Positions 1 through 12,957 of a stretch of DNA of 44,863 bases are shown piece after piece. The notes under the pieces are model-generated. The model was not told the origin of the DNA. It did not search any database and worked only from the letters and a program-made list of their open reading frames with translations. Position numbers and translations under genes: made by a program. This DNA is from Minisyncoccota bacterium (GTDB lineage Bacteria > Patescibacteriota > Minisyncoccia > Phycocordibacterales > UBA5272), in assembly GCA_018061825.1 (NCBI GenBank), contig JAGOTK010000001.1, forward strand, positions 12,837-57,699, read 5' to 3'. Position 1 is the stretch's first letter; every line of letters starts with the position of its first letter.

Positions 1-3000
1 ATTTTGCAAAACTATTTCTTCTTTTTCTGATTCTGTAAATTTTATTTCTGAAAGTTTACAATCTTTTTTTAGATCTTCTTCAAAAGATTTTACAAAATCA
101 ATCCTGTTTTTATTTGTCTCAAAATTTAAAGACACTAAATCATTTGGAGTTAGATTATTTTCTTTTCTTATATCTTTTATTTTGCGTACAAGCTCTCTAT
201 AGTCACCTTCCCTTTTTAAAGTTGGAGTTATTTCTTTATCTATAATAATAGAAGAACATGTGTTCTCTTTATCAAATTTGTGAAATAGCCACTTAGCTCC
301 TTCTTCATATTTATTTTCAGCTATATCTTCATCTATTTCTACAGCTTTAAAATTTACCTCATCTATAAGAATTCTAAGATTATCTTCTGAAAGAGTTTTA
401 TAATCTTTGCCTAATATGAGTCTACCCATAGGCTGACGAACATTTATTTTTAAATTTTGTCTAATAAATAATATTTTTTGTACTAATTCACGGATAATTT
501 CCATTTCTTTTAATATGTCTTGATCTATTTTTAGAAATTCTGTAGGCCAAGACTCCAAATGTACAGATTCTCTTTTTTTAGCATTTTCTATATTTATCCC
601 TTGATAAACCCTTTCTGCTATAAAAGGCATAAAAGGAGCAATGATTCTTGATAAATCATTTAATGTAGTATGAAGTATATATTGTGATATTATTTTATTA
701 TTCAATTTCTCTTCTTCTGTATTCCCATATTCGCCTTTCAACCTTTCTCTACTTCTTCTTAGCCACCATGTAGATAAATCATCTATAAATTTTTCAAAAG
801 ATCGTGTAGCTGTATCCAGTCTGTAGTTATTCATAGCTTTTGTGGTAGATACTAAAATCTCATTCAATCTAGTGAGTATCCAAATATCAATATCATTTGT
901 GATGTCTTTTTTATTTGTAGATAACACTTTAGCAAAAATAGATTTATCATTAATCATCTCAAAAAAACTAAAAACATTTTCTAACTTAGAAATAATTTTC
1001 TTATAAGATTCTTCTACATTACTATCAGAAAAAGGAATATTTTCAGCACACATCACAGATGAAGAAAGTAAAGAATGTCTAAATGCATCGGCTCCAAATT
1101 TTTCAACTAAAACCATAGGATCTGTATAATTATTTTTACTCTTACTCATTTTCTCACCATCAGCAGCAAGAAGAAGTCCATTTACTATCACATTTTTATA
1201 TGCAGATTTATCAAATAGACCTACAGAAATATTTAACAATGAATAAAACCATCCTCTAGTCTGATCAAGACCTTCAGCAATAAAATCTGCAGGAAAATTC
1301 TTTTCAAATAATTCTTTATTCTCAAAAGGATAATGAAATTGTCCATAAGGCATAGAACCTGACTCAAACCAGCAATCAAACACATATTCTACTCTTTCCA
1401 TTTCTTTTCCAGAAGAGCTCAATATTTTTACATTATCTATATAAGGTCTATGTAGGTTTATCTTTCCTTTCTCATCTCTTGGTATTATTTTTATATCAAG
1501 TTTTCTAATTTCTGCGTTTCTTGGATAAAGAATAATATTATTTGATAATTCATCTTTAATTAAATTTTCTTCTGTCAAAAGCTTGGCTCCTGTCTGAGCC
1601 ATTCTCATTGGTGCACCATGAGTCACTATTAGAATCTTTTTATTTACATATTTTTCTTCTAAATTATAAATACCTCTCATCATTCTATTCATGACGTCTC
1701 CATGACTTTCACCTCCACCGATCTTTGTATTAAATTTAAGATAGCTTATACCAAGATCCTCAAAGATTTTTGATCCTTTTTGTTTATTATAAATTCCAAG
1801 TTCTATTTCTCTAAAATTCTCATCTATGATAATTTCTTGTCCATTAGACATTAGCTCAGCTGTTTCAATTGTTCTTAAATATGGAGAAGATACTATCAAA
1901 TCAAAATCAACATTTGTTCTTTTTTTAGTATCCATCACCTGAGTCTTTCCAAGCTCTGTAAGATGATTATTTGGATCCATTTCTGTATCTTCTATACCTT
2001 CTACATTATGTCCAGCTTCTCCATGGCGGATAATATAATATTCATTTTTTTGTTTGTTAATATTTAAATCAGCCAGCTCTTTTATAGATCCTATAACTTT
2101 TATCTCCTCACCCCCTATCTCTTTCCATATTGGAATTGGAGCTCCCCAATATCTACTTCTAGACACTGCCCATTCTCTTGCTCCTTCGAGCCATTTTCCA
2201 AATCTTCCATCACGTATATTTTCTGGGATCCATTCTATATTTTTATTTTCAGATAAAAGTTTGTCTTTTATCTTTGGCACATCTATAAACCAAGAGCTTG
2301 TAGCATAATTAAGTAATGGGGTCTCACATCTCCAACAAGTAGGATATGAGTGTATTATTTTTTCTTTTGAAAAAAGCAGACCTCTCTTTGCTAAATATTT
2401 AATCATTAAAATATCAGCTCCCTGATTATCATCTTTTGTCTTTACAAATATTTTTTTAATTTCTTTTAACTGTGTAGACTCATCAGCTTTTACAAAAATA
2501 CCTCTATCTTTATCGTAAAGCTCATCTATCACGTCTCTATCAAATGATCCATCCATATTTACATGACGTAGTCTGGGAAGATTGTATTTTTTTGCAAGAT
2601 TGTTGTCATCTTCACCAAACATTGGAGCAATATGTACAACACCTGTACCTGTATCGAGAGTCACAAATTCAGCATCCCAGATTTTATAAAAATTAAAATC
2701 TGCATCACCTACTATCTTATTGGCTTCCAATATACTTCTAACAAAAAAAGGTGCCTTGTATTTTTTACCAATTAGTTTTTCTCCAGAAAATGTATCTATC
2801 ACTCTTATATCTTCAAAATCATCTTTAAAAACTTCAAACACTTTTTCAAATCTGTCTTTTGCAAGAATAAAAGACTCTGTCTTTTTATTTTCTTTTTTTG
2901 TCGCTTCCACTTTCACATATTCAAATTCTTTATTTATAGCAAGAGCCACATTGCCAGGTATCGTCCATGGAGTAGTAGTCCAAGCAAGTACAAAAGTATT

Positions 3001-3648
3001 TGGCTCATCTTCAAGCTCAAATTTTACAGTTATAGAAATATCTGTAAGATCTTTATAAGCGAGAGAAACTTCAGATTGAGCAAGAGTAGTCTCACATCTT
3101 GGACAAATATGCATACTCTTTTTTCCTTCGTATACTAAACCTTTTTTAAATAATTCACTAAAAGCCCACCATACAGACTCTGTATAATTTGCATCCATGG
3201 TCTTGTAAGAATTTTCCATATCCACCCATCTTCCAAATCTTGGTACTATTTCTTTCCATTCTTTTTCATAAGTAAACACACTTTCTTCTGCTGCTTTATT
3301 GAATTTTTCAATACCAAATTCTTCAATATCTTTTTTTGAATTTAAATTAAATTTCTTTTCTATCAAATTTTCAATTGGAAGACCGTGACAATCCCAACCC
3401 CATACTCTACGCACATGCTTTCCATTCATAGTATGAAATCTTGGAATAGTGTCTTTGATTGTCCCAGCAAGAAGATGTCCATGATGTGGCATACCTGTAG
3501 CAAAAGGAGGGCCATCATAAAATGTAAAACTTTCATCAAAACTTTCCCCTGCTGGCTTTTCTAAACTTTTTTGAAAAATTTTGTTGTCATTCCAGAATTT
3601 TAATACTTCAAGTTCTTTTTCATTTATTGATTTTGCTTTTTCGTTCAT
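1..3648 (-). CDS. ileS: Isoleucyl-tRNA synthetase with inserted histidine-phosphatase domain (C-terminus cut by window edge)
   Basis: Class Ia synthetase that charges tRNA-Ile in the cytoplasm. About 1216 codons are visible and no stop is reached at the left edge. The HIGH-type motif PHHGH is at residues 54-58, followed by GWDCHGLPIE, the CPRC and CWRC zinc-knuckle pairs and KMSKS at 833-837. Between the WGAPIPIW segment and LHRPYID, where other IleRS have a short linker, about 190 residues are inserted. They contain RHG (His542), SSPYLRT (Arg592), GGGES (Glu647) and THG (His677), which is the full catalytic set of the histidine phosphatase (phosphoglycerate mutase-like) superfamily. The frame is unbroken across the insert; I checked it codon by codon. 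Start ATG 3648 follows a T-box leader. The synthetase identity is certain; the role of the insert is unknown. Confidence 0.97.
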   Translation of the reverse strand, partial: MNEKAKSINEKELEVLKFWNDNKIFQKSLEKPAGESFDESFTFYDGPPFATGMPHHGHLLAGTIKDTIPRFHTMNGKHVRRVWGWDCHGLPIENLIEKKFNLNSKKDIEEFGIEKFNKAAEESVFTYEKEWKEIVPRFGRWVDMENSYKTMDANYTESVWWAFSELFKKGLVYEGKKSMHICPRCETTLAQSEVSLAYKDLTDISITVKFELEDEPNTFVLAWTTTPWTIPGNVALAINKEFEYVKVEATKKENKKTESFILAKDRFEKVFEVFKDDFEDIRVIDTFSGEKLIGKKYKAPFFVRSILEANKIVGDADFNFYKIWDAEFVTLDTGTGVVHIAPMFGEDDNNLAKKYNLPRLRHVNMDGSFDRDVIDELYDKDRGIFVKADESTQLKEIKKIFVKTKDDNQGADILMIKYLAKRGLLFSKEKIIHSYPTCWRCETPLLNYATSSWFIDVPKIKDKLLSENKNIEWIPENIRDGRFGKWLEGAREWAVSRSRYWGAPIPIWKEIGGEEIKVIGSIKELADLNINKQKNEYYIIRHGEAGHNVEGIEDTEMDPNNHLTELGKTQVMDTKKRTNVDFDLIVSSPYLRTIETAELMSNGQEIIIDENFREIELGIYNKQKGSKIFEDLGISYLKFNTKIGGGESHGDVMNRMMRGIYNLEEKYVNKKILIVTHGAPMRMAQTGAKLLTEENLIKDELSNNIILYPRNAEIRKLDIKIIPRDEKGKINLHRPYIDNVKILSSSGKEMERVEYVFDCWFESGSMPYGQFHYPFENKELFEKNFPADFIAEGLDQTRGWFYSLLNISVGLFDKSAYKNVIVNGLLLAADGEKMSKSKNNYTDPMVLVEKFGADAFRHSLLSSSVMCAENIPFSDSNVEESYKKIISKLENVFSFFEMINDKSIFAKVLSTNKKDITNDIDIWILTRLNEILVSTTKAMNNYRLDTATRSFEKFIDDLSTWWLRRSRERLKGEYGNTEEEKLNNKIISQYILHTTLNDLSRIIAPFMPFIAERVYQGINIENAKKRESVHLESWPTEFLKIDQDILKEMEIIRELVQKILFIRQNLKINVRQPMGRLILGKDYKTLSEDNLRILIDEVNFKAVEIDEDIAENKYEEGAKWLFHKFDKENTCSSIIIDKEITPTLKREGDYRELVRKIKDIRKENNLTPNDLVSLNFETNKNRIDFVKSFEEDLKKDCKLSEIKFTESEKEEIVLQN
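1500..2040 (-). other. Histidine-phosphatase domain embedded in IleRS
   Basis: Domain within ileS, roughly residues 537-715. It starts with YYIIRHGEAGHN and continues through LTELGKTQ, LIVSSPYLRTIETAELM, the GGGESHGDV loop and ILIVTHGAPMRM. Both catalytic histidines, the conserved arginine and the acidic residue are kept, so the sequence predicts an active phosphatase or mutase fold rather than a relic. The flanking IleRS sequence (WGAPIPIWKEIGGEEIKVIG before, INLHRPYID after) joins as in ordinary IleRS. Confidence 0.9.
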
Positions 3649-3673
3649 AATTTTAATTTGATATTGATATTGA

Positions 3674-3710
3674 TAAAAAAACCACCCAAAACTCTTTCGA
3701 GTCAAGGGCG
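3674..3710 (-). terminator. Attenuator terminator of the ileS T-box
   Basis: Minus-strand stem CGCCC...ACTC-GAAA-GAGT...GGGTG followed by a run of T. It competes with the antiterminator that contains the T-box core. Confidence 0.88.
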
Positions 3711-3851
3711 ATTTTAAAATAAAATATTTTTCTTCGCGGTACCACCTTGTTCACTAAATAATTACTTATTTAGCCTTGTTGATTGGGCTCTACTTATCTT
3801 TCGACTTTCTTCCCATAGCTCCAGAGTGATTAGATCCTTCAACGCTTTTAT
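3674..3851 (-). promoter_or_regulatory. T-box riboswitch leader of ileS
   Basis: On the minus strand the leader contains the T-box core AAGGTGGTACCGCG (3735-3748), whose UGGN bulge pairs with the 3' end of uncharged tRNA. Just before it is a hairpin CTAAATAA/TTATTTAG (stem III position), and after it a terminator with U-run (3674-3710). CGCCCTT can pair either with AAGGTGG (antiterminator) or with GGGTG (terminator). Two AUC isoleucine codons followed by A, at 3828-3830 and 3781-3783, are specifier candidates. I did not resolve stem I, which looks short. Known T-boxes raise synthetase expression when the cognate tRNA is uncharged; the ileS context fits exactly. Confidence 0.9.
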
Positions 3852-3857
3852 GTAGAT

Positions 3858-3884
3858 ATTATATCAGAAAATATTAAAATTCAA
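3858..3884 (-). promoter_or_regulatory. Promoter of ileS T-box transcript
   Basis: -35 TTGAAT (3879-3884), 15-nt spacer, -10 TATAAT (3858-3863). Transcription would begin near 3851, just upstream of the T-box leader. Confidence 0.65.
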
Positions 3885-3886
3885 AA

Positions 3887-4306
3887 TTAAAACTCTTTTA
3901 CATGCTCATAAACTTTTGAGTATTTAGAAGTGATAAATCCATGCTTTTTATAAAAGTTTAAAGAGTCTTCAGTAGCATTTAAGAAAATCCATTTTAATCC
4001 TTCACTTTTTACAACTTCTTCAAAATATTCTAATAATTTTCCTCCATATCCGAGACTTCTTTTTTCAGGATCAGTTGCTATATACCAGAGAATGCAGCCT
4101 TTATGAATTAATTTTTCTGAAAGCAATACTGACACTAAAACATTTTCTTCAAATAACCCAAAAGCAAAACATCTTTCTTTATTTTCTATCATATCTCCTA
4201 CCCATCCAGGACCAGGATAATCTCCATCTGCATATCTGAGTGTGTCTTGATGTAAAATTTTTAAAGTATCTTCTAAATTTTCTTTTTCTAATTTTCTTAT
4301 TTCCAT
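3887..4306 (-). CDS. GNAT-family N-acetyltransferase
   Basis: 139 residues, the normal size for a single GNAT domain, which moves an acetyl group from acetyl-CoA to an amine. The acetyl-CoA loop is seen at residues 83-90 (RSLGYGGK) after the beta-strand CILWYIATDP, and the C-terminal motif LNFYKKHGF is typical (N...FY...GF). The substrate cannot be told from sequence. The start lies 4 bp after the argS stop, so the two are probably cotranscribed from argS. Its stop overlaps the region of the ileS promoter. Confidence 0.85.
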   Translation of the reverse strand: MEIRKLEKENLEDTLKILHQDTLRYADGDYPGPGWVGDMIENKERCFAFGLFEENVLVSVLLSEKLIHKGCILWYIATDPEKRSLGYGGKLLEYFEEVVKSEGLKWIFLNATEDSLNFYKKHGFITSKYSKVYEHVKEF

Positions 4307-4310
4307 AATT

Positions 4311-6149
4311 TTACATTCTTTCCACTTCTTTAATTCCTATTATGTTCATTGTGAATTTTAATGTATTTTTAAATCTATCCACTAAAAACAGATTTGCTTC
4401 TGTCTTTTCTTTATCTTCACTTAAAATCTTTTCTTTTCCATAAAAAGTATTGAAGCTTTGAGCTAATTCAAAAAGATATTTTACTATTAATTGTGGAGCT
4501 ATATCTTCTATGCCTTTTTTAGCAATAGCTTCCAATTCTGTTATTTTTTTAATTAAAGGAAGATTATTTTCTGATATAAAAGAAGTATTGAAATTTTTAA
4601 GAGATCCAATTTCTCCTTTTTCCAAAATAGAATTTGCCCTTGCATATGTATAAAGAAGATATGGACCAGTCGCTCCTTCAAAATTAAGTGAAGTTTCAAA
4701 ATCAAAATCTATATTAAGACCAGGTTTTGATTTTAAAATTGCAATCTTTAATGCAGAAAGAGAAATATTTTTTATTAAATTATTTTCTAAATCTTTTGTC
4801 TTTTCTGAAAGTCTTTCTACTACTTTCACATTAACTAAATGCAAAGTATCCTCGACACTTAAAACATTTCCAAGCCTGCTAGACATTCTACCTCCTTTTA
4901 GATTGAGTCTTCCATGAGGGATATGCTCACTTTTTTCTGCTATCTTTTTCCATTCATTATTATTCATTTTTTGACCAAGCTCTCTTGCTGCTTGAATCAC
5001 AACATCAAAATGTGGGATCTGTTCAGTATCTGTAATAAAAAAATTGTAATCAAAATCAAAATATTCTTGCTTTAATTTAAAAAGCCCTATATCTTTTGCT
5101 TCATATGTAGGATGTCCTTCACTATTTATAAATACACTCTTTATGGTCTCATCACTTTCATTATTTTTCTTTCTTTTTGTATCAAAGACTATTGCGCCAC
5201 CTTCTCCAATTTCAAACACTTCTTCATTATTTTCTAGATTCAAATTTTCTTTTACTATTCTTTCTCCACTTATTCCTGCTTCAGATTCATAAATGAGTTT
5301 ATCAAAACTAGATCCCAAAAAATCTAATATTTTTTCAAAATATTCTACATTTATTTTTCTAGCTTTTTCAAAGATCTTCCAATCTTCTGTATTTATATTT
5401 TTTTCAAAAAGATTTTTGGCTATGGCTTTTATTTCGTTTTGCTTATCTAAATTTTCATCATAAAATTTAACCCCACGAACATATGTATCACCTAAATAGG
5501 AAACTATTTTTTCAATAAAATCACTGTCGTTAAAAGAGTTTAAATTTTCTACAGCATTTTTTAAATCCAACTTTATAATATAAATCGCCTTTGCAATACC
5601 AATAGAAATATCAGAAGGAAAAGATACTGTTTTTAGATCTGCATTTGTATATTTCATCATCTGCACAATACTCTCACCTATTGTATTGTTCATAAGATGC
5701 CCAATATGAAATGGTTTAAAAAGATTTGGAGACGAATGCTCTACTAATACTTTTTTGTTTGTAAATTTTGTATCTATAAATTTTAAATTAGAAATCCTTT
5801 CTACTTCATTTATTAAAAATTCTTCTTTCAAAAATAAATTTACAAATCCATTTGCAGCTAAATTCGCTTCTTTTATTATTTTGGATAAATCTTTTTCACT
5901 CTCAATATTAAAATTAATCTCTTTTATTATTTCACTTCCTATTTCTTTTGGAGTTTTCCCTGTCTTTTTTGCGAGTACTAAAGATATATTTGTAGAAATA
6001 TCTCCAAACTTACTATTTACAGTGTCTATAAAAGACACATCAAATTTAAATTTTTCGTTTTCTAAACCATCAGCTTCACTACTAGATAAATAATTTAATC
6101 TGTATGATATGTGTGCTATTTCTTTTTTTAATAAGTCTAGTATTGTCAT
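4311..6149 (-). CDS. argS: Arginyl-tRNA synthetase
   Basis: Class Ia synthetase for tRNA-Arg. I chose ATG 6149 (612 residues, MTILDLLKK). The open frame extends to an ATG at 6197, but a -10-like TAAAAT lies between the two, which would leave only a very short leader before 6149. Visible parts are the N-terminal additional domain (about 1-110), EHSSPNLFKPFHIGHL with HIGH at 148-151, the catalytic Rossmann fold with EAKDIGL, the KMSKS-equivalent GRMSSRLGN, and the C-terminal DALR-type anticodon domain beginning near GATGPYLLYTYARANSIL. The GNAT gene follows 4 bp after the stop. Confidence 0.95.
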   Translation of the reverse strand: MTILDLLKKEIAHISYRLNYLSSSEADGLENEKFKFDVSFIDTVNSKFGDISTNISLVLAKKTGKTPKEIGSEIIKEINFNIESEKDLSKIIKEANLAANGFVNLFLKEEFLINEVERISNLKFIDTKFTNKKVLVEHSSPNLFKPFHIGHLMNNTIGESIVQMMKYTNADLKTVSFPSDISIGIAKAIYIIKLDLKNAVENLNSFNDSDFIEKIVSYLGDTYVRGVKFYDENLDKQNEIKAIAKNLFEKNINTEDWKIFEKARKINVEYFEKILDFLGSSFDKLIYESEAGISGERIVKENLNLENNEEVFEIGEGGAIVFDTKRKKNNESDETIKSVFINSEGHPTYEAKDIGLFKLKQEYFDFDYNFFITDTEQIPHFDVVIQAARELGQKMNNNEWKKIAEKSEHIPHGRLNLKGGRMSSRLGNVLSVEDTLHLVNVKVVERLSEKTKDLENNLIKNISLSALKIAILKSKPGLNIDFDFETSLNFEGATGPYLLYTYARANSILEKGEIGSLKNFNTSFISENNLPLIKKITELEAIAKKGIEDIAPQLIVKYLFELAQSFNTFYGKEKILSEDKEKTEANLFLVDRFKNTLKFTMNIIGIKEVERM

Positions 6150-6216
6150 AATCTTTATTGAGTTTATTTTAACAGAAAATCGAGAAAATAAAAACAAGCA
6201 AATAAAATAATATATT

Positions 6217-12183: not shown

Positions 12184-12957
12184 ATGTTTATAAAATACTA
12201 CTATCTAGTAAGACATGGTGAGACCATAATGAATAAAGAACACAAAAGACAAGGAGAAGAAGGAGCACTTTCTCCTAATGGGATAGCAGAAGTGGAAGAA
12301 GTAGCAAAAAGAATAGCTGGAATGAGAATTGATAAAATGTTTGTATCCCCTTTTGAAAGAACCAGAGAAACTGCAGGCATAATAAATTCACATATAAAAT
12401 TAAGTGAAGATAAAATAATCATAACCCCACTTTTAGGAGAAAGAAAAAATCCTACTAGTATAGTAGGTAAAACTTATGACGATCCAGAAGCTAAATCTTT
12501 TGTGGATATGATGGACAAAAGTATTCATGAGCCAGATCTTCGTATATCAGATGAGGAAAATTTTCAAGACCTAAAAAATAGAGCAATAGCTGCACAAAAA
12601 TATTTAATTGAAAATGGAGTAAAACGTAATCTGTGTGTTACTCATGGTATATTTTTAAAAATGTTTTTATCAACACTACTATATGGTGAGACTTTGACAG
12701 TAAGACAGTACGCAGAAATGGGTCTTTACAATTCTGCTGATAACGCTGCTTTAACCTTAATAAAATACGATCCAAAGAAAAAAATTCTTGGACCTATAAA
12801 AAAATTCTTTGATAATATTTTAGATGATAAAGAAGATTTAGATGAAGAAGAGCAAATAAAAAATATGAATAAGCCAATATTGGATAAGTATTCTCCTTGG
12901 GAGATCTTAGCCTACAATGACTATACTAGAGATGGACTTTCTAGATTAAAAATCTAA
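12184..12957 (+). CDS. Histidine phosphatase family protein
   Basis: 257 residues. The phosphatase domain begins at once: YYLVRHGETIMNKEH (nucleophile His in RHG), LSPNGIAEVEEVAKRI, MFVSPFERTRETAGII (conserved Arg), an acidic ENFQDLKNRA region and NLCVTHGIFLKMFL (second His in THG). The last 60 residues, acidic and ending SPWEILAYNDYTRDGLSRLKI, are outside the core fold. The substrate is unknown. It is the free-standing counterpart of the domain inserted into IleRS in this window. A hairpin terminator follows. Confidence 0.88.
   Translation: MFIKYYYLVRHGETIMNKEHKRQGEEGALSPNGIAEVEEVAKRIAGMRIDKMFVSPFERTRETAGIINSHIKLSEDKIIITPLLGERKNPTSIVGKTYDDPEAKSFVDMMDKSIHEPDLRISDEENFQDLKNRAIAAQKYLIENGVKRNLCVTHGIFLKMFLSTLLYGETLTVRQYAEMGLYNSADNAALTLIKYDPKKKILGPIKKFFDNILDDKEDLDEEEQIKNMNKPILDKYSPWEILAYNDYTRDGLSRLKI

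Follow-up and report, generated by a model that had tools for sequence, protein, structure and literature searches.

A histidine phosphatase nested in the CP3 loop of isoleucyl-tRNA synthetase in Patescibacteria

The isoleucyl-tRNA synthetases (IleRSs) of Priestia (IleRS2, 8c8v) and Saccharomyces (8wnd) contain the whole synthetase, including the CP1 editing domain, the HIGH and KMSKS motifs and the C-terminal domain. All of these are shared by the IleRS encoded at one end of a 44,863-nucleotide stretch of a Minisyncoccota genome (contig JAGOTK010000001.1), hereafter called the window. However, neither solved enzyme has a phosphatase, whereas the window IleRS has ~200 extra residues in its CP3 loop. 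These residues hold a histidine phosphatase (HP) with the same fold and the same RHG/R/E/H set as PhoE (1ebb/1h2e), PspA (4ij5) and CobC (6nru). Those three enzymes are free-standing, unlike the nested HP, which also falls below the cut-offs of the dPGM, CobC and PspA families. The window protein scored 67 against an equivalog cut-off of 225 for dPGM, to whose models it has weak similarity, 64 against 163 for CobC, and 48 against 350 for PspA.

An IleRS with an added enzyme domain is not without precedent, as the NCBIfam model NF040702 (ileS_w_GNAT) describes one, although with a different domain. The window protein scored 265 against the cut-off of 1999 for this model and has no GNAT domain. 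An HP joined to another enzyme is also found in mycobacterial MutT1, which acts on diadenosine polyphosphates and 8-oxo-dGTP and in which mutation of the RHG His left the phosphatase activities tested unaffected (PMC11784022). MutT1 consists of an N-terminal Nudix and a C-terminal HP without a synthetase, unlike the fusion described here (IleRS-HP). The preliminary description of this locus held that no function had been described for such a fusion, and our searches agree. No description of IleRS-HP was found in the literature searched, which largely excluded subscription papers and preprints, and neither the AARS Online paper nor an RNA 2020 review mentions a synthetase phosphatase. HPs and type-2 IleRSs are themselves known families.

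The synthetase gene and its surroundings have the following features:

1..3648, minus strand: ileS, type-2-like isoleucyl-tRNA synthetase with nested phosphatase (ORF, translation, TIGR00392, AlphaFold2 model)
3475..3489, minus strand: PHHGH (HIGH motif), residues 54-58 (translated sequence)
1138..1152, minus strand: KMSKS, residues 833-837 (translated sequence; K833 and K836 invariant in 59 sequences)
3701..3851, minus strand: candidate T-box leader 5' of ileS (Rfam RF00230 match)
4311..6197, minus strand: argS (ORF list; argS and ileS are commonly arranged in this way, with a free HP gene between them in relatives)

The ileS ORF (3648..1, minus strand) comprises 1216 stop-free amino acids in the window, and its 3' end lies just past the window edge. 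The protein scored 824.4 bits with TIGR00392 (ileS), above the curated cut-off of 621.4, and the HIGH and KMSKS motifs, CP1 and the anticodon domain are all present. From its sequence, the gene product is an isoleucyl-tRNA synthetase, predicted to charge tRNAIle. The match to RF00230 upstream is weak (E 1.2e-4; 29.7 bits against a gathering score of 93), with the conserved core GGUGGUACCGCG present. Through this T-box-like leader, expression of IleRS and its nested HP may respond to uncharged tRNA. A GNAT acetyltransferase gene (3887-4306, minus strand) lies between argS and ileS, in the slot that a free HP gene occupies in relatives. Elsewhere in the window, positions 12184-12957 (plus strand) encode a free-standing 257-aa PF00300 protein, the only other PF00300 protein found in the window genome.

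The insert and its catalytic residues are located as follows:

1462..2073, minus strand: inserted segment, residues 526-729, between SIKEL and INLHRPYID (break in the alignment with IleRS structures)
1561..2037, minus strand: HP domain (PF00300), residues 538-696 (profile match, core model)
2023..2028, minus strand: Arg541-His542, catalytic RHG motif with His542 as nucleophile (in 151/151 complete site-A inserts)
1873..1875, minus strand: Arg592, phosphate pocket (in 151/151 complete site-A inserts)
1807..1809, minus strand: Glu614, likely general acid (149 Glu, 1 Asp and 2 Ser among 152; PhoE alignment)
1708..1710, minus strand: Glu647 of the GES motif (in 148/152 inserts; distinct from the acid position)
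1618..1620, minus strand: His677, second catalytic histidine (THG; in 152/152 inserts)

The alignment with solved IleRSs is unbroken to about residue 525 and picks up again at residue 729. The insert is bounded by SRSRYWGAP (496) and HRPYID (733) and thus lies downstream of the CP1 editing domain. A CxxC-type pair before the HP and a C-C pair after it were found in 85 of 152 inserts at this position (site A), which places the HP within the CP3 zinc ribbon; the window IleRS itself lacks these zinc-ribbon cysteine pairs. The insertion had earlier been placed near the CP1 editing domain, and this location must be corrected to the CP3 zinc-ribbon loop after CP1. AlphaFold2 modelled residues 1-1196 of the window IleRS with a pLDDT of 90 and a pTM of 0.85, with ten-residue means of ~84-97 over the HP. 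The nearest solved folds to this whole-protein model are Priestia IleRS2 and yeast IleRS. Modelled alone, the HP core reached a pLDDT of 89.5 and a pTM of 0.87, and its nearest folds are phosphoserine phosphatase (4ij5/4ij6), a riboflavin-pathway HP phosphatase (9mmh) and PhoE.

PF00300 matched residues 538-696 with 95.6 bits (E 3.8e-27; gathering score 21.7), and the branch-1 HP catalytic set is complete (R541, H542, R592, E614 and H677). With the TIGR00392 score and with PHHGH and KMSKS in place, this bears out the original proposal of an intact HP inside an intact IleRS. The proposal named four catalytic marks, His542, Arg592, Glu647 and His677. All four residues occur where they were placed; however, Glu647 is not the acid. 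The REIELG of the window aligns over the REIHLG of solved PhoE, which puts Glu614 at the general-acid position and leaves Glu647 as a separate conserved glutamate of the GES motif. Moreover, Glu614 is invariant across a 30-sequence alignment of inserts. The invariant positions in this alignment resemble those of the HP family in general, so that a substrate-specific pocket is not visible.

Apart from that of its nearest relative, the other inserts are just 24-50% identical to the HP of the window. Purifying selection acts on the HP as it does on the host IleRS, with dN/dS values in three close pairs of 0.11, 0.06 and 0.17 for the HP and 0.12, 0.13 and 0.16 for the host, at a dS near saturation. 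Since the catalytic residues would hardly be retained in a spacer or a dead domain, the HP in IleRS is probably catalytically active.

A search for PF00300 inside IleRS homologs had been proposed at the outset, together with two ways in which the observation could fail, namely an assembly chimera or the loss of catalytic residues in relatives. The fusion proved to be widespread in Patescibacteria. Within the class, IleRS-HP with the same insertion site was found in ~178 of 286 genomes (best matches below 1e-60), and an IleRS-HP was counted in ~59 of 380 genomes sampled across the phylum. IleRS was extracted for 29 relatives among the 40 nearest genomes, and each of the 29 carries the insert; one genome of the same order as that of the window (G040) has an IleRS without it. 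The same insert is also present in dozens of named public MAGs, and a scan of GTDB contigs returned, among the matches listed, Nomurabacteria, Zambryskibacteria, Taylorbacteria, Yanofskybacteria, Colwellbacteria, Liptonbacteria, Wolfebacteria and others. With the insert in many independent assemblies and the catalytic residues kept, neither mode of failure applies. One contig with a fused IleRS (L049) was binned as Spirochaetia, yet it was placed within the Patescibacteria IleRS tree and is probably a misbinned Patescibacteria contig.

Further analysis was carried out on 55 genomes of the class picked for a weak site-A profile. In 11 of these, a related HP gene immediately precedes ileS in the same orientation (G453, G432, G530, G632, G389, G493, G547, G619, G314, G639 and G588), and in six more it lies 0.6-2 kb upstream of ileS (G635, G650, G601, G608, G372 and G470). 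Four others have a fused-looking IleRS on broken or unusual contigs (G538, G503, G539 and G550). Most of the operonic HP cases have argS just upstream, and argS also accompanies the fused gene at 54 of the 76 loci with sufficient sequence. In G598, the free HP still adjoins argS although ileS is on another contig, and some IleRSs of the class have an HP neither in cis nor nearby. The simplest reading is an argS-HP-ileS operon in which the HP was absorbed into ileS or released from it. A quick tree of the IleRS host requires the insert to have been gained or lost at least 10 times on well-supported branches, and a tree of the HPs places the operonic ones with most of those at site A. A single clade for the HPs was rejected (p 8e-8) when the free HP set included Patescibacteria HPs, and a single origin was not rejected (p 0.75) against non-Patescibacteria HPs only.

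HPs also occur at two other IleRS sites, after WFESG and before KMSKS (site B) and after KMSKS (site C). A 1572-aa IleRS (L143; G283, 1167-5882) has HPs at sites A, B and C, with three PF00300 stretches, and family f103 carries two HPs in tandem. At only 28-36% identity to one another, HPs that share a protein are not recent duplicates. In ValRS, HPs were found at the site corresponding to A and at site B. Other enzymes are nested as well, including GNAT alongside HP in one IleRS (L156), Nudix and a serine hydrolase with HP in a second (L161, G321; the Nudix-HP pairing recalls MutT1), HAD and a serine hydrolase with HP in a ValRS (L154, G269), and HAD, an alpha/beta hydrolase and Nudix in a ValRS-like protein (L274, G048). 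Three LeuRS-type enzymes have ~200 extra residues. In two of them (L271 and L276) a serine (alpha/beta) hydrolase is nested in CP1, and the third (L277) has a GxSxG motif after the editing domain with no Pfam hydrolase match above threshold. A CP1 insert of ~195 residues in another IleRS (L160, G413; residues ~246-440) gave no convincing Pfam match; by eye it is perhaps CYTH-like.

Our preferred reading, to which we tentatively give a probability of about 0.42, is that the HP is a tethered accessory phosphatase in a permissive IleRS loop, acting on a small diffusible phosphate. A complete, predicted catalytically competent phosphomonoesterase would be nested in a surface loop of the CP3 zinc ribbon, and from its residues we infer phosphatase activity. 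His542 would accept the phosphate from a small diffusible compound with the assistance of Arg541, Arg592, Glu614 and His677, and water would then free the phosphate from the enzyme. Tethering to IleRS would provide co-expression and proximity rather than channelling to the tRNA end. As HPs occur at several sites and in trans, they probably do not keep a constant position with respect to the tRNA, which makes a diffusible substrate likelier than channelling. The best structural matches of the HP are small-metabolite phosphatases, and the HP is retained in genomes lacking enolase and phosphoglycerate mutase. The likely substrate would be a small phosphate, nucleotide-type or other, that is generated in aminoacylation or limits it (AMP or a by-product, for instance), although this link between the substrate and aminoacylation is speculative.

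Nearly as likely as a phosphatase linked to aminoacylation is a selected passenger, that is, a generic housekeeping phosphatase unrelated to aminoacylation that was swallowed by its operon neighbour ileS. The loop would accept any small domain with close ends, and the essential synthetase would merely guarantee expression. The nesting of unrelated enzymes (GNAT, Nudix, HAD and serine hydrolase) in similar loops of the same host class agrees with this, as do the HPs at three IleRS sites and the free HP that remains by argS in G598. However, HP has remained linked to ileS, either nested in it or next to it, over great divergence, and it also occurs in a second synthetase, which is more than would be expected for a neutral partner. 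The fusion represents either a so far undescribed dephosphorylation step tied to Ile/Val tRNA charging, or genome reduction absorbing operon neighbours into the loops of essential proteins. Both meanings are testable because the same HP is nested, operonic and absent among relatives. In some of the bacteria with the smallest genomes, an essential universal enzyme has absorbed another enzyme in its entirety.

A broader but rather unlikely extension of the aminoacylation-linked reading is that the nested small hydrolases of Patescibacteria class Ia synthetases (IleRS, ValRS and LeuRS) jointly clear toxic or inhibitory by-products of aminoacylation. If so, the HP of IleRS, the commonest nested hydrolase seen here, would be a new synthetase-coupled clean-up activity.

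A regulatory role, in which the HP is a protein phosphatase (e.g. SixA-like) or a sensor domain controlling IleRS, appears improbable. The T-box-like leader on ileS is compatible with regulation, and there is precedent in E. coli SixA, a phosphohistidine phosphatase that dephosphorylates Ndk (PMC12934123). However, no partner protein was identified, and the strict retention of catalytic residues argues against a purely structural sensor.

Still less probable is an action on the tRNA 3' end or the aminoacyl-adenylate, geometrically coupled to the synthetic or editing site. The CP3 zinc ribbon, which holds site A, lies close to the synthetic site in class Ia enzymes. However, the HP is also found at two further IleRS sites, at two ValRS sites and in trans, which weakens the adenylate and tRNA-terminus ideas of the preliminary description. 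Moreover, the usual substrates of HP enzymes are terminal phosphomonoesters, and an aminoacyl-adenylate is not one.

We consider it very unlikely that the HP is a (p)ppGpp hydrolase or the phosphoglycerate mutase of the cell. A RelA_SpoT protein was found in 15 of 18 genomes tested. It is absent from three genomes of at least 98% completeness, one with a fused HP (G363) and two with an operonic HP (G314 and G632), and hydrolysis of ppGpp is therefore disfavoured. The weak similarity to dPGM models would fit a mutase, but the dPGM, CobC and PspA cut-offs were not reached, and a glycolytic role is rejected in this lineage as the window genome and the family members tested lack both enolase and iPGM. 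An assembly artefact is ruled out by the identical junction in dozens of independent assemblies and, with the catalytic set intact, the chance of a chimera or dead insert is negligible.

Outside the synthetases, an HP was also seen at the C-terminus of a membrane protein of 437-446 aa that is DedA-like by eye (L151 and L152, in G216 and G265).
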